A stretch of DNA of 64,000 nucleotides, taken from positions 62,001 through 126,000 of the forward strand of contig JAHWKW010000007.1 in NCBI GenBank assembly GCA_019347675.1, written 5' to 3'. Shown here piece by piece: positions 17,332 to 57,679 of this stretch. Within the stretch, counting starts at the first letter, position 1; each line of letters opens with the position of its first letter. The position numbers were made by a program, and so were the translations under genes. The notes below the pieces were generated by a model. It worked only from the letters and a program-made list of their open reading frames with translations, was not told where the DNA came from and did no database searches. This stretch comes from Actinomycetota bacterium. GTDB lineage: Bacteria; Actinomycetota; Nitriliruptoria; Nitriliruptorales; JAHWKO01.

Positions 17332-18405
17332 TCAGGCGGCGACGACCACCCAATCCTCGGAGGCCTCCCCCGGGTGGTAGGGGGCGTCGACGCGCTTGGC
17401 CAGCAGGCCGGGCAGCTGCCGGGCGCGGGCAGCGTCGAGCAGTGCGGTCCCGTGACCGACGTGGTGGCGGGGCGCCTGCCACGCGGAACCGGCCAGGTCC
17501 AGGTCGTGCAGCAGGGCTCGGCGCTCGCGGTACGCAAGCTCGGTGGTCGGGTGGCCCTCGAGCCACAGCAGGTCGACGAACAGTGCCGCCACCGGCCGGT
17601 CGCCCGCCAGGCGCCGAGCGCGCGCGTCATCACCGGCGGTGAGCCGCCGCTCGACCACGGCGCGGTCGTTGGTCGGCTGCCCGTCCCGGTCGACCGCGAC
17701 GATCACCGCGTCCAGGATCGTCTCGACGGCGGCCAGGCGGCGCCCGACGCGGCGCACCTCCGGGAAGCTGACGGAGACGTCGCCGCCGTCGCCGTCGGTG
17801 ATGGTGACGTGGCCGGCGTCGTTGGCCATCAGCACCCGTTCGCCGACCCAGCGGATCTCGAAGGCCCATCCCGGCCCGTGGGGGAGGTCTCCCGCCACCG
17901 CCCGCATCGGCCGCAGGTCGGCGGGGATGGGCCGCCGATCGGGGTCCTGCGGCGGGTCCATGCGGTGGATCATCCAGTCACGGTCGCCGAGCGGGAACAG
18001 GGCGTAGGTGCCGCGGACCCGCTGACCGTGCAGCGTGACCACGACCTTGTCGTCGCGGAAGGTCCGCTCCTGGTAGGTGCCCCGGTCCCAGATGTCCATG
18101 CGGCCCGCGCCGTACTCGCCGGCGGGGATCTGTCCGTGGAAGTCCAGGTAGTCCAGCGGGTGGTCCTCGGTGTGGACGGCGAGCCGGTTGTCGGCGGGGC
18201 GCCAGGGGATCCCCTGCGGCAGCGCCCACGACGCCAGCACGCCGTCGCGCTCGAGCCGCAGATCCCAGTGCAACCGGGTCGCGTCGTGCTCCTGGATCAC
18301 GAACCGCCGCTCCCCGCTCGGTGGGAGCGGGAGCGCATCCCCGGCCGGCTCTGGGGTCGTGGCGAAGTCTCGGAGCTGGCGGTAGTGCGCGAGCCGGTCG
18401 GACAC
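17332..18405 (-). CDS. LigD-like protein: intact 3'-phosphoesterase domain plus degenerate ligase domain
   Basis: The first ~180 residues of this 357-residue protein match the LigD 3'-phosphoesterase domain, which trims 3' ends during end joining. The metal-binding pattern FVIQEHDATRLHWDLRLE and AVHTEDHPLDY is complete. The remaining ~170 residues align with the LigD nucleotidyltransferase domain, but the key parts are changed: the adenylated Lys of KxDG is Arg (FEIRWVGERVL), the DGE motif reads LDAVIVA, and the motif near the end is GLLAKRVDAPYHPG with the preceding Glu lost. The OB fold and polymerase domain are absent. It is divergent from ku, which supports a role in end joining without ligase activity. 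Confidence 0.85.
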   Translation of the reverse strand: MSDRLAHYRQLRDFATTPEPAGDALPLPPSGERRFVIQEHDATRLHWDLRLERDGVLASWALPQGIPWRPADNRLAVHTEDHPLDYLDFHGQIPAGEYGAGRMDIWDRGTYQERTFRDDKVVVTLHGQRVRGTYALFPLGDRDWMIHRMDPPQDPDRRPIPADLRPMRAVAGDLPHGPGWAFEIRWVGERVLMANDAGHVTITDGDGGDVSVSFPEVRRVGRRLAAVETILDAVIVAVDRDGQPTNDRAVVERRLTAGDDARARRLAGDRPVAALFVDLLWLEGHPTTELAYRERRALLHDLDLAGSAWQAPRHHVGHGTALLDAARARQLPGLLAKRVDAPYHPGEASEDWVVVAA

Positions 18406-18548
18406 CCCACCAGGCTGCCGCTCCGGTCCCCTGCGGCGCCACCTCCACGGTCCGTCCGCGCGGCCACAGGCGACCCGACGTTCGGTCGTCGGTCCGTCCC
18501 CGCCGGCGCCCCACACAGCGGCAACATGGCCGACGAGGAGGATGGACC

Positions 18549-19484
18549 ATGGCGAGGGCAACCTGGTCGGGCTACATCAGCTTCGGGCTGGTGACCGTCC
18601 CCGTGAAGCTGTACTCGGCGGTGCGCAGCCACGATGTCCACTTCCGGCAGCTGCACGAGACCACCCACGCGCGGGTACGCCGCCGCCGGGTCGACGAGCA
18701 GACCGGCGAGGAGGTGCCCTACGACGAGATCGTGAAGGGCTACCCGGTCGACAGTGACGAGTACGTCGTCGTCGACCCCGAGGAGCTCGAGCAGCTCGAC
18801 CCTGAGGCGCGTCGGACGGTCGACATCCAGGACTTCGTCGAGCTGGCCGAGATCGACCCGATCTACTACAACAGCCCGTACTACCTGGCCCCGGCCGACG
18901 AGAGCGCCTTCAAGCCCTACGACCTGCTGGTCGAAGCGATGCAGCGCTCCGAGAAGGTCGGCATCGCCAAGTTCGTGATGCGCAACAAGGAGTACCTCGC
19001 CGCGATCCGGGCCCGCGACCACGTCCTGCTGCTGTCGACCATGAACTACGCCGACGAGGTCGCCGACCCAGCCGAGATCGAGGGCGTCGAGGACCGCCCA
19101 CGCGAGATCCGCGAGCGGGAGGTCACGATGGCTGAGCAGCTGATCGAGTCGTTGACCACCGAGTTCGACCCGGCCCGCTACCACGACGAGTACCAGCAGC
19201 GGCTGGTCGAGTACCTGGAGGCCAAGGCAGAGGGTGAGAAGGTCACGGTCACCGCGCCGCCGGAGGAACCCGGCGGGGTGGTCGACCTGATGCAGGCCCT
19301 CGAGGCCAGCCTCGGCCGTGACCGCGACCGCTCCGCCGGTGAGGACCGTTACGCCGACCTCACCCGCGACGAGCTGTACGAGCTCGCGCAGGAGCGCGAC
19401 ATCCCCGGCCGGTCGAAGATGAGCAAGGACGAGCTCGCCGGTGCGCTCCGCGACGCCGACCGCGAGCAGCGCGCCGCCAGTTGA
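18549..19484 (+). CDS. ku: bacterial Ku protein with C-terminal SAP/Rho-N-like helix pair
   Basis: Homodimeric Ku rings bind DNA ends and recruit LigD in non-homologous end joining. The start ARATWSGYISFGLVTVPVKLYSA is the classic bacterial Ku beginning. The core (YYLAPADESAFKPYDLLVEAM, GIAKFVMRNKEYLAAIR) is complete to about residue 250. The C-terminal extension carries YADLTRDELYELAQERD then IPGRSKMSKDELAGAL, a SAP/Rho-N-type DNA-binding helix pair, instead of the Lys-rich tail common in other actinobacteria. GAGGAGG precedes the ATG by seven bases. The gene is divergent from the LigD-like gene across 143 bases that must hold both promoters. Confidence 0.95.
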   Translation: MARATWSGYISFGLVTVPVKLYSAVRSHDVHFRQLHETTHARVRRRRVDEQTGEEVPYDEIVKGYPVDSDEYVVVDPEELEQLDPEARRTVDIQDFVELAEIDPIYYNSPYYLAPADESAFKPYDLLVEAMQRSEKVGIAKFVMRNKEYLAAIRARDHVLLLSTMNYADEVADPAEIEGVEDRPREIREREVTMAEQLIESLTTEFDPARYHDEYQQRLVEYLEAKAEGEKVTVTAPPEEPGGVVDLMQALEASLGRDRDRSAGEDRYADLTRDELYELAQERDIPGRSKMSKDELAGALRDADREQRAAS

Positions 19485-19517: not shown

Positions 19518-20315
19518 TCACCCGCCGAGACGTTCCAGTCGCTGCTCGACGTCGCGGACCTCCGCACGCGCCGCGTCGCGCTCGTCCGCCAGTTCGCTGG
19601 CGCGTCGGCGTTCCTCGCGGGCCTCGGATCTGGCCTGCTGTGCCTGGCGCCGCAGCCGCTGCGCGCGCGCGTCGGCGTCCGCCGCCCGCCGCTCCTGGCG
19701 TTCGACCGCGCGCTCCAGGTCGCCCAGCCGGCTGTGGACCTCACGCAGGCGCCGCCGCAGCGCCGAGCGTTCAGCGGCCGATTCAGCGGGCGTGTCGTCC
19801 TCCGCCCCGTCGGAGGGAAGCGCCGCGAGACCCGCGAGCGTCCCGAACCCCGGCGACGTGGTCGCCCGGACCAGGCGGCCGCGGGCGACCGCGTCGCGGA
19901 CCTCGTCGTCGACCGCGGCGGCGTGCAGGGTGGCGGTGACGTCGTCACGGTGGGTTGCGGGAGAGCTGCCGAGCTCCTGGATCAGGTCGGCTGCGGCGGC
20001 GGTGAGGCGGTCGACCACGTCGCGCAGGTCGTCGACCGCCCCGCGCAGCTGGCCATCGCGGCCGCTCAGCGCCCGCCTTTGCGCCCGACGGACACGGTCG
20101 GCCGCGGCGAGCAGCTGTCGGACGTCGTCGGGGTGGCGGCGGGTGAGCTGGTTGACCGCCCAGGCGGCGATGGTGGGCCTGCGCCGAGAGGACAGCTGCT
20201 CGGCGGCATCCCGATCTCCTGCGTCGCGGAAGCGGCCGACGAGTTCGTCGCGGGTCGCGACGAACTCGTCAGGTGGGACGGCGTACACCTGATCGATGGC
20301 CTGCTCGACGTCCAC
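19518..20315 (-). CDS. coiled-coil protein of unknown function next to ku
   Basis: A 265-residue charged protein. The N-terminal half is helical with a conserved-looking core (RRPTIAAWAVNQLTRRHPDD). The last ~90 residues are a long Arg/Ala/Glu coiled coil with heptads (LRRRLREVHSRLGDLERAV and onward). There is no membrane segment or enzyme motif. It is convergent with ku, 33 bases apart. I have seen similar unnamed proteins in actinobacteria but cannot assign a function; a role in chromosome or repair scaffolding would be a guess from the neighbourhood. Confidence 0.65.
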   Translation of the reverse strand: MDVEQAIDQVYAVPPDEFVATRDELVGRFRDAGDRDAAEQLSSRRRPTIAAWAVNQLTRRHPDDVRQLLAAADRVRRAQRRALSGRDGQLRGAVDDLRDVVDRLTAAAADLIQELGSSPATHRDDVTATLHAAAVDDEVRDAVARGRLVRATTSPGFGTLAGLAALPSDGAEDDTPAESAAERSALRRRLREVHSRLGDLERAVERQERRAADADARAQRLRRQAQQARSEAREERRRASELADERDAARAEVRDVEQRLERLGG

Positions 20316-34825: not shown

Positions 34826-34957
34826 CCGTATCAGGGAAGTGACGACGTGCGGTCCGCAACCTGGTCGCCTGGACCGACACCGAGCGAGTGGCGAACCCGA
34901 CCCCGTGGCGGAGCCAGCCGGCACCGCCCAGCGACGGTCGTCAACTCGAGGTGCAAA

Positions 34958-36019
34958 GTGATCCCCACACCGAAGCGGTCGGTCACCGCCGGACGGCTCG
35001 CACTGGTCGCCTTCCTCGCCGTCGCTCTGGCGGCTTTCCTCCTGCAGCCAGCCGCGGCTGCTTCCAAGGACCGGGCGACGGGCCAGGACAAGGCGCAACG
35101 CGCGCAGGTGACGGAGGACAACGACGACGACGGTTTCCCCAACTGCCCGGATCCGCTCGGTGACGCTGACAACCGCCACCCGTCGGGGAAGGACAAGCAC
35201 TGCGAGAGTGGCAGGTCCGGGAACCAGGGCGGCGCGGCGCACGATCCCGACGACGACGGGCGCGGTCCCGACCGCGGCACGGGCGGACGTGACCAGCCGG
35301 GCGGCACCGGCGGTGTGGACCTGCTCGACCAGGATGGCAACAACGGGTGCGGCAACGACGACGACTTCGAGGACGACAACGAAGGCTGGTGCGGTCGCAA
35401 CCCGGCACGGCAGGATCAGCGGGCCAAGGACGAGCGCAAGCAGCCTGCGGTGAAGCAGCCGGCGAAGAAGCAGCCTGCCGTGAAGCAGCCGGCGAAGAAG
35501 CAGCCGGCGAAGAAGCGGCCTGCCGTGGAGCAGCCGGCGAAGAAGCGGCCTGCCGTGGAGCAGCCGGCGAAGAAGCAGCCGGCGAAGAAGCAGCTGCCCG
35601 CGGAGCAGGAGAGGCAGGAGCAGGTCACGCCGCCGACCCAGCAACCGCAACACGACGTCCAACCTCCACAGTCCCCGGTCGAGGACAAGGTGCAGGCCAC
35701 GCAGCAATCTGCCGGCGCCGCACCGCAGACCGCCGTGCTCGGATTGCGGATCGAGGGCCCCGCCGGTCGGACCAACGTGGAGGCGGCTCTCCCTGGGGCC
35801 TCCGACGAGGTTCAGGTGCTCGGCGTGACGCTGCGGCGCGTCCCGGCTGCCGCGGACATCGGGCAGATCCAGGCCGCCGAGACCTCCGGGCACGTCCATG
35901 CCGCCGCGGCGCCGGGGGCTCTGGCTCGCACCGGCGCTGACGTCCCGTTCGTCCTGGTCCTCGGGTTGGTCCTCGTCCTGGTCGGGGCCGGCGCGGTCGG
36001 GTTCGCGCAGCGGTACTGA
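34958..36019 (+). CDS. LAxTG-anchored surface protein with Asp-rich and Lys/Pro/Ala repeat regions
   Basis: The 353-residue protein has a signal peptide (residues ~1-36, ending QPAAAA). Next is an Asp-rich part with Ca2+-loop-like stretches (DNDDDGFPNCPD, DPDDDGRGPD, DQDGNNGCGNDDD) and paired Cys. A highly basic repeat of (K/R)(Q/R)PA(V/K)K units spans residues ~165-215. A Gln/Pro linker, a small folded part (TAVLGLRIEGPAGRTNVEA) and LARTG, a membrane segment and a QRY tail complete it. LAxTG is the sorting motif of class E sortases in high-GC actinobacteria. No sortase gene is in the window. GAGG seven bases upstream supports the GTG start. Confidence 0.82.
   Translation: MIPTPKRSVTAGRLALVAFLAVALAAFLLQPAAAASKDRATGQDKAQRAQVTEDNDDDGFPNCPDPLGDADNRHPSGKDKHCESGRSGNQGGAAHDPDDDGRGPDRGTGGRDQPGGTGGVDLLDQDGNNGCGNDDDFEDDNEGWCGRNPARQDQRAKDERKQPAVKQPAKKQPAVKQPAKKQPAKKRPAVEQPAKKRPAVEQPAKKQPAKKQLPAEQERQEQVTPPTQQPQHDVQPPQSPVEDKVQATQQSAGAAPQTAVLGLRIEGPAGRTNVEAALPGASDEVQVLGVTLRRVPAAADIGQIQAAETSGHVHAAAAPGALARTGADVPFVLVLGLVLVLVGAGAVGFAQRY
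35440..35600 (+). repeat. nested 12/15-bp repeats encoding Lys/Pro/Ala units
   Basis: AAGCAGCCGGCGAAG and AAGCAGCCTGCCGTG type units alternate about ten times, all in frame, with some CAG to CGG and AAG to GAG changes. Confidence 0.85.
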
Positions 36020-41223: not shown

Positions 41224-41507
41224 TCGTCGAGCCCGCCGGACCCGGAAAGCCCATCGTCGAGCCCGTCCGACCCGGAAAGCCCATCGCCGAGCCCGCCCGA
41301 CCCGGAAAGCCCATCGCCGAGCCCGCCCGACCCGGAAAGCCCATCGCCGAGCCGCCGGACCCGGAAAGCCCATCGTCGAGCCCGTCCGACCCGGAAAGCC
41401 CATCGTCGAGCCCGTCCGACCCGGAAAGCCCATCGCCGAGCCCGCCCGACCCGGAAAGCCCATCGTCGAGCCGCCGGACCCGGAAAGCCCATCGTCGAGC
41501 CCGTCCG
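41224..41507. repeat. 30-bp minisatellite, nine copies, two of them 29 bp
   Basis: Units of ACCCGGAAAGCCCATCG plus a variable GTC/GCC-rich half lie directly after the DUF192 stop codon. Seven units are 30 bp, and the fourth and eighth are 29 bp. Units fall into two main variants (GTCGAGCCCGTCCG and GCCGAGCCCGCCCG). The 29-bp units break any reading frame, so the array is unlikely to be translated as one protein. Confidence 0.92.
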
Positions 41508-56251: not shown

Positions 56252-57679
56252 GTGGACGCCAACGACTTCAAGGTCGCTGATCTCTCCTTGGCCGACTGGG
56301 GACGCAAGGAGATCCAGCTGGCCGAACAGGAGATGCCTGGGCTGATGGCGCTGCGCCAACGCTACGCCACCGACCAGCCGCTGGCTGGTGCGCGGATCGC
56401 CGGCTGCATCCACATGACGGTCCAGACAGCGGTGCTGATCGAGACGCTGCAGGCGCTCGGGGCGCAGGTGCGCTGGTCGTCGTGCAACATCTTCTCCACG
56501 CAGGACCACGCCGCGGCCGCGATCGCTGCCGCGGGCACCCCGGTCTTCGCCTGGAAGGGCGAGACCGAGGAGGAGTACTGGTGGTGCATCGAGCAGACCC
56601 TGCGCTGGCCACGGGGTTCGGGGTCCTCCCCGGAGCCAGGGGGTTCGGGGTCCTCCCCGGAGCCAGGGGGTTCGGGGTCCTCCCCGGAGCCAGGGGGTTC
56701 GGGGTCCTCCCCGGAGCCAGGGGGTTCGGGGTCCTCCCCGGAGCCGGGAGATCAGGGGCCCAACATGCTCCTGGACGACGGCGGTGACCTCACCACGCTC
56801 GTCCACGACGAGCACGAGGACCTGCTGGCCGCCATCCGCGGTGTGTCCGAGGAGACCACCACCGGGGTGCACAACCTGCGCGCCATGCAACGGCGGGGCA
56901 CCCTGCGCATGCCGGCGATCAACGTCAACGACTCGGTGACAAAGTCCAAGTTCGACAACCTGTACGGGTGCCGCGAGTCGCTGGTGGACGGCATCAAGCG
57001 CGCCACCGACGTGATGCTGGCCGGCAAGACCTGCGTCGTGGCCGGGTTCGGCGACGTCGGACGCGGCAGCGCCCAGTCGCTACGCGGGTACGGCGCCGAG
57101 GTCTGGATCACCGAGGTCGACCCGATCAGGGCGCTGCAGGCACGGATGGACGGCTACCGGGTCGTCACCATGGACGAAGCCGCCCCGGTCGCCGACCTGT
57201 TCGTCACCGCCACCGGCTGCCGCGACGTGATCACCCTCGAGCACATCCTGCAGATGCACGACCAGGCGATCGTGTGCAACATCGGCCACTTCGACATCGA
57301 GATCCAGGTCGCGCGGCTGCGGCGGTTCGACTGGACCAACGTCAAACCCCAGGTCGACCAGGTGCACCTGCCCAACGGACGCTCGATCATCCTCCTCGCC
57401 GAGGGACGGCTGGTGAACCTCGGCTGCGCGACCGGTCACCCGTCGTTCGTGATGAGCATGTCGTTCACCAACCAGGTTCTCGCCCAGATGGAGCTGTGGG
57501 CCAACCACGAGGACTACAAGCACGAGGTCTACGTCCTGCCCCGTCATCTCGACGAAGAGGTCGCACGTCTGCACCTCGACCACCTCGACGTGCACCTCAC
57601 CCAGCTCACGCCCGAGCAGGCTGCGTACCTCGACGTGCCGGTCGAAGGTCCCTACAAGCGCGACGACTACCGCTACTGA
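56252..57679 (+). CDS. ahcY: S-adenosylhomocysteine hydrolase with a 45-residue repeat insertion
   Basis: Splits S-adenosylhomocysteine into adenosine and homocysteine, which keeps methylation going. The 475-residue enzyme has the family motifs [50 protein letters not shown], the NAD-binding [18 protein letters not shown] and [12 protein letters not shown], with a C-terminal KRDDYRY. Between TLRWP (residue 120) and [12 protein letters not shown], five perfect copies of GSGSSPEPG (residues 122-166) are inserted, coded by a 27-bp tandem repeat. In other bacteria these two parts join almost directly. The insertion is in a loop before the catalytic DDGGD segment; activity is presumably retained. 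GAGGAG-like CAGGAG precedes the GTG start. Confidence 0.95.
56615..56752 (+). repeat. 27-bp tandem repeat in ahcY, five copies
   Basis: GGTTCGGGGTCCTCCCCGGA followed by GCCAGGG is repeated; the last copy has one change (CCGGGAG). In frame, encoding GSGSSPEPG. Confidence 0.95.

Follow-up and report, generated by a model that had tools for sequence, protein, structure and literature searches.

This locus raises the question of what a LigD-like protein encoded next to Ku might do once its ligase domain has lost the residues that carry out ligation. We call the protein "PE-pseudoLIG" after its N-terminal LigD 3'-phosphoesterase (PE) domain and its C-terminal pseudo-ligase (pseudo-LIG) domain, and use "the window" for the whole stretch of 64,000 nucleotides that was analyzed. 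The reading that we favor, with moderate confidence, is that of a 3'-end-healing factor, in which the part derived from a ligase serves to dock on Ku, DNA ends, or both, and another ligase does the sealing. The features on which the analysis is based are collected in Table 1.

Table 1. Features of the PE-pseudoLIG/Ku locus in window coordinates; the last row gives loci in other sequences
Feature	Position	Strand	Remarks
PE-pseudoLIG gene	17332..18405	(-)	357 aa + stop, GTG start
LigD 3'-phosphoesterase (PE) domain	17959..18393	(-)	TIGR02777/PF13298; PDB 3p43, 2lj6
Pseudo-ligase (nucleotidyltransferase) domain	17335..17934	(-)	PF01068; PDB 1vs0/6nhz; AF2 + Foldseek
Motif I, RWVG for KxDG (nucleophile Lys gone)	17842..17853	(-)	sequence alignment
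DGE motif, reading DAV	17704..17712	(-)	sequence alignment
Intergenic region between the divergent PE-pseudoLIG and Ku genes	18406..18548		143 bp
Ku, 311 aa	18549..19484	(+)	TIGR02772 E=1.6e-99; Pfam Ku 2.5e-53
SAP/Rho_N-like C-terminal tail of Ku	about 19362-19475	(+)	profile matches
Coiled-coil protein, no known family	19518..20315	(-)	directly beside Ku; recurs elsewhere
Homologues of the coiled-coil protein	L201:3257-4081; L202:7259-7924; L212:4474-5181; L228:4983-6008

The open reading frame listed for PE-pseudoLIG begins at a TTG codon (18561) inside the Ku gene, but the start is almost certainly the GTG at 18405, which we favor because most family members begin 1–3 residues ahead of the PE domain. 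The gap between the two divergent genes is a probable shared promoter region. The base composition of the gene follows the typical coding pattern with the ligase part included (GC of 0.84/0.52/0.92 by codon position), and GC3 is 0.92–0.95 over both domains, in keeping with the preliminary description of a ligase remnant kept without frame damage.

The PE domain of the window protein matches PF13298 (E=1.5e-38), scores above the cut-off of TIGR02777 (163.8 bits), and contains the full set of known catalytic residues (H40, H46, D48, R50, H82, and Y86) together with R12, D13, E19, Q38, S59, and E80. Residues important for the PE activity of Pseudomonas aeruginosa LigD are Q40, H42, H48, D50, R52, S61, E82, H84, and Y88, along with three near the N terminus, R14, residue 15, and E21 (PMC8656161). 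When residues are mapped by way of PDB 2lj6 in the alignment, each of these has a counterpart in the window protein; for position 15, the review gives Arg15, but the 2lj6 sequence has Asp. By profile and by its His/His/Asp/Arg/His/Tyr active site, the domain belongs to the LigD PE family, and its motifs are as intact as first described. The six catalytic residues are kept in 20 of the 21 members of the family introduced below, the remaining one having Phe in place of Y88. Judged by these residues, the PE domain is probably an active 3'-end healer; in the AF2 models, built here from a shallow alignment, this part has a pLDDT of <50.

The C-terminal part is a remnant, ~200 residues long, of the ligase nucleotidyltransferase fold, matching the ATP-dependent ligase domain over the Pfam cut-off (PF01068, 50.6 bits) with altered catalytic motifs. 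Alignment to Mycobacterium tuberculosis LIG bears out the reported replacements in motif I and in the DGE motif, and adds that the motif IV Glu is Pro and that the KVK of motif V is VVA. Residue by residue, K481 (the nucleophile), R501, E530, and E613 of M. tuberculosis are R, G, V, and P in the window protein, and R629, K635, and K637 are E, V, and A; equivalents of R486, E479, and K618 are retained. A stop codon directly follows motif V, so that the OB fold is absent, as had been noticed, and none of the ORFs downstream of the gene encodes one. A frameshifted downstream OB fold was ruled out, the overlapping frames having no Pfam match. The preliminary description had left room for an alternative catalytic Lys at the correct position; this too is ruled out, as the sole Lys of the domain, K337, aligns with K618 of M. 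tuberculosis LIG and not with K481.

Structure prediction, proposed earlier as a check on this domain, returned a confident model of the window protein (AF2 pLDDT ~88 over residues 160–357), and Foldseek matched it to adenylation domains of ATP-dependent ligases, M. tuberculosis LigD among them (4eq5, E=2.4e-16 at 2.1 A; 6nhz, E=1e-13 at 2.2 A). A second, distant member of the family is also modeled confidently, with nearly identical secondary structure. Pseudo-LIG is thus predicted to have the nucleotidyltransferase fold of ATP-dependent ligases. A POL domain is absent from the protein as well (TIGR02776/PRK09632 far under cut-off), which alone is not decisive, as a domain is missing from some LigD homologues too. 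Lacking two defining features of LigD, the catalytic Lys and the OB fold after motif V, PE-pseudoLIG should not be named a ligase.

The preliminary description treated PE-pseudoLIG as a single case. We find instead a widespread family of 21 proteins in 21 genomes from at least two actinobacterial classes, assembled from one class search, one phylum search, and two order searches. The class search yielded one orthologue, 66% identical and from another family of the same order, which has a cytochrome b gene, not Ku, as its neighbor; because it carries the same RWVG, DAV, and truncation, the dead ligase domain is not a product of chance. A scan of public genomes gave no matches with a two-sequence profile and seven named loci with a single-protein query. 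These include two named members, both MAGs (Actinomycetota bacterium JAFATL010000480.1 and Acidimicrobiaceae bacterium JAUTXM010000401.1), and intact PE-LIG genes followed by Ku (L219, Acidimicrobiia MAG) or by Ku and POL (L224, Thermoleophilaceae MAG), likely the ancestral arrangement.

We compared 65 PE-LIG proteins, of which 21 lack the motif I Lys and 44 are intact relatives. At this position the family has Ala (14), Arg (5), Asp (1), or Trp (1), against Lys in 44/44 intact relatives. All 21 Lys-less proteins stop 0–11 residues past the profile match, with the OB fold missing in every one, whereas most Lys-bearing proteins extend ~90–430 residues into the OB fold, the exceptions being contig ends and matches already reaching into that fold; loss of the Lys and loss of the OB fold therefore coincide across the compared proteins. 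In a whole-protein tree built without the motif columns, the 21 group together as a single clade nested within the intact PE-LIG proteins (support 97/91), with a single change to the dead state in 98% of bootstraps. The tree of the LIG part also has one change (support 69), and the weak tree of the PE part has five and does not recover the clade, although a single clade is not rejected (AU p=0.15). Taken together, the trees support one evolutionary origin of the family.

Part of the nucleotide-binding site has survived, and one could imagine that the remnant binds ATP/AMP or an adenylated 5' end non-covalently, sensing or protecting it and so regulating PE. The equivalents of R486, which contacts the ribose in M. 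tuberculosis, and of the adenine contact E479 are each kept in 19/21 members, that of K618, another adenine contact, is kept in 15/21 (with Arg in five more), and the DGE Glu persists in 11/21, though not in the window protein. Yet the residues that hold phosphate and metal (R501, E613, and mostly K635/K637) are missing from all members or almost all, and those that remain may serve the fold only, so we consider a nucleotide sensor rather unlikely.

The association with Ku, seen at first as one neighborhood, is more than a single coincidence. In the order with most family members, Ku occurs in 14/14 good-quality carrier genomes (one of them, G565, with a broken PE-pseudoLIG copy) vs. 133/264 overall (Fisher p=5e-5, a value that takes no account of the kinship of the carriers), and PE-pseudoLIG lies ≤3 kb from a Ku gene in 3/21 genomes (the window's, G438, and G574), for which the probability by chance is about 1e-5. 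A dedicated Ku lineage was ruled out, the three neighboring Ku proteins falling in different parts of the Ku tree. This genomic association is what suggests that PE-pseudoLIG is a component of Ku-dependent NHEJ. The other 18 copies are not beside Ku, LigC-type ligases are present in many carriers too, and mycobacterial LigC has been tied to base excision repair (PMC5663958), all of which would fit an action outside end joining, for example the cleaning of 3' ends in single-strand-break or base excision repair with LigC. Against this stand the presence of Ku in every good-quality carrier, at about twice the order's rate, and the operons that intact PE-LIG relatives form with Ku and POL at L224 and L219; we give such a role a small probability.

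If PE-pseudoLIG heals ends and does not seal them, another ligase has to be at hand, as the preliminary description supposed. A search of its own genome for a separate LigD or LigC (assembly 97% complete) found both, two ligase loci besides the window together with a second Ku. Contig 6 carries a split LigD, with adjacent genes for PE, LIG (KLDG, with OB), and POL; contig 12 carries a LigC-type ligase (KWDG) beside a prim-pol gene; and on contig 3 the second Ku lies beside a POL gene. Because the genome has an intact split LigD and LigC, sealing need not depend on PE-pseudoLIG. Other ligase-domain genes were present in 21/21 genomes searched, K-x-D-G was kept at all 30 such loci inspected, and an intact ligase gene lay within about 3 kb of Ku in 13/21, as in the LIG-Ku-POL operon of G316. 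Another ligase is thus available. The second Ku on contig 3 (L010:2154-4806) is without the SAP-like tail of the window's Ku, and a separate ORF downstream of its POL neighbor ends in a SAP-like segment.

The gene for the coiled-coil protein is an immediate neighbor of Ku in the window, G438, and G574. In G428 its gene is directly upstream of PE-pseudoLIG, with no Ku there, and on a Kitasatospora cathayae plasmid it is directly upstream of Ku; the gene order differs among these loci. Streptomyces, Gordonia, Mycobacterium, and Nonomuraea also have homologues, at sites apart from Ku. The protein may be an end-joining accessory that has gone unrecognized. Elsewhere in the window, we noted a c-di-GMP-II-GAG riboswitch (34826-34911, plus strand, 55.1 bits) upstream of a region of 15/45-nt tandem repeats (35438-35623), a long 30/119-nt tandem array (41224-41507; 9.5 copies, 92% match), and a 27-nt unit repeated five times (56575-56745, plus strand, 99% match) that overlaps an ARAGORN tRNA-Gln call without Rfam support, probably not a real tRNA.

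The dead domain is under purifying selection, with a constraint somewhat below that of live LIG. In the four closest pairs of members, its dN/dS is 0.42, 0.32, 0.15, and 0.33, compared with 0.33, 0.21, 0.13, and 0.20 in the PE part of the same pairs (1.15–1.65 times the PE value) and 0.14–0.31 in intact LIG domains; in more distant pairs it rises to 0.64–0.70, where dS is saturating. Loss of the catalytic residues and purifying selection across lineages together make it a pseudoenzyme, and the earlier view of a kept non-catalytic domain gains from the 21 members, their single clade in the main tree, this selection, and the confident fold model. Pseudo-LIG evolves faster than PE, with a mean identity in the family of 45% vs. 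62% (56% vs. 61% in intact relatives), and stand-alone PE proteins, one of them in the same genome, indicate that PE chemistry needs no LIG. These two observations would suit a folded linker or stabilizing tail to a protein whose function is PE, in which case loss of the remnant would destabilize PE. However, as PE stands alone elsewhere, ~200 kept residues, 18 of them invariant among 13 diverse members, would be superfluous in such a protein, and dN/dS is well below 1 in the close pairs; a mere tail is, in our estimation, a shade less probable than either of the roles weighed above. A decaying LigD copy, whether pseudogene or assembly artefact, as the lost catalytic motifs and one seemingly frame-broken copy in G565 might suggest, is refuted for the family by 21 conserved open copies with a common end point, clean starts, codon-position bias, dN/dS <1, and membership of one clade, and is hardly credible for the window's copy. 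The apparently broken copy (L147, G565:C4:573258-574298) would reflect decay or an assembly error, the other copies being open.

In the 3'-end-healing reading that we prefer, PE-pseudoLIG would be a two-domain bacterial end-joining factor that arose a single time from a LigD of the PE-LIG type. Its PE domain would act as a Mn-dependent 3'-phosphatase and 3'-ribonuclease, producing clean 3'-OH ends, while the LIG part, its self-adenylation and OB clamp lost, would have been retained for docking and would deliver PE, by way of the Ku core, the DNA end, or both, to ends that Ku has bound. Once docked, pseudo-LIG could neither seal ends nor adenylate them abortively, and a separate intact LIG (LigC, or the LIG of a split LigD, which is often encoded in a LIG-Ku-POL operon) would join the healed ends. 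Purified Ku of M. tuberculosis has a KD of about 81 nM for the isolated LIG domain and contacts LIG through its core (PMC9638933), although the LIG construct comprised NTase plus OB and the Ku binding may not lie in the NTase part; for PE-pseudoLIG, we infer both the docking on Ku or DNA and the hand-over to another ligase. Mammalian Lig4 that has been engineered to be catalytically dead continues to promote end joining, and it stimulates or recruits Lig3 (PMC9638927, PMC11754673). A bolder version, which we regard as improbable, is that the dead ligase is itself a scaffold on Ku and DNA ends that carries the healer and holds unhealed ends for the separate ligase, with the coiled-coil protein as a partner; if true, this would be a dedicated end-joining module in which bacteria have an equivalent of the structural role that Lig4 plays.

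PE-pseudoLIG resembles the PE-LIG(-POL) LigD proteins of Acidimicrobiia and Thermoleophilia, among which the family is nested, in having PE, linker, and nucleotidyltransferase domain in identical order, and differs from them in lacking the nucleophile Lys, the motif Ia Arg, the motif IV Glu, the OB fold, the POL domain, and mostly the motif V Lys. With stand-alone LigD PE proteins (archaeal PE, PDB 3p43/3p4h/5dmp) it shares a full PE active site and no expected ligase activity; unlike them, it bears the conserved ligase-derived domain. Another likeness is to engineered inactive mammalian Lig4 (K273A / K273S; PMC9638927, PMC11754673), a dead ligase that can support joining by another, but those proteins are full ligases with point mutations made in the laboratory, whereas PE-pseudoLIG is natural, truncated, bacterial, and fused to a 3'-end healer. 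The split NHEJ of Streptomyces (KuA-C, LigC, and a ligase-domain-only LigD), as presented in the accessible part of PMC5124664, likewise has separate genes, several Ku, and a SAP tail on one Ku, but there its ligase proteins are functional and no pseudo-ligase is described.

A search of open-access papers gave no earlier account of a protein that combines PE with a pseudo-ligase. The PE domain, the ligase fold, and Ku are known; what appears to be new is their combination in a naturally occurring family of pseudo-ligases, maintained by selection and joined to an end healer that looks active. By known chemistry PE-pseudoLIG cannot be a ligase, and annotation pipelines will tend to call it one; it would also be taken for a ligase in surveys of NHEJ across bacterial genomes, because they count ligase domains by profile match (e.g., PMC7719229). 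The family offers a naturally occurring test of the part that a ligase plays in end joining besides ligating, a question studied with engineered eukaryotic mutants, and it brings the non-ligating role of ligases within reach of experiments on a simple bacterial system of two or three proteins.
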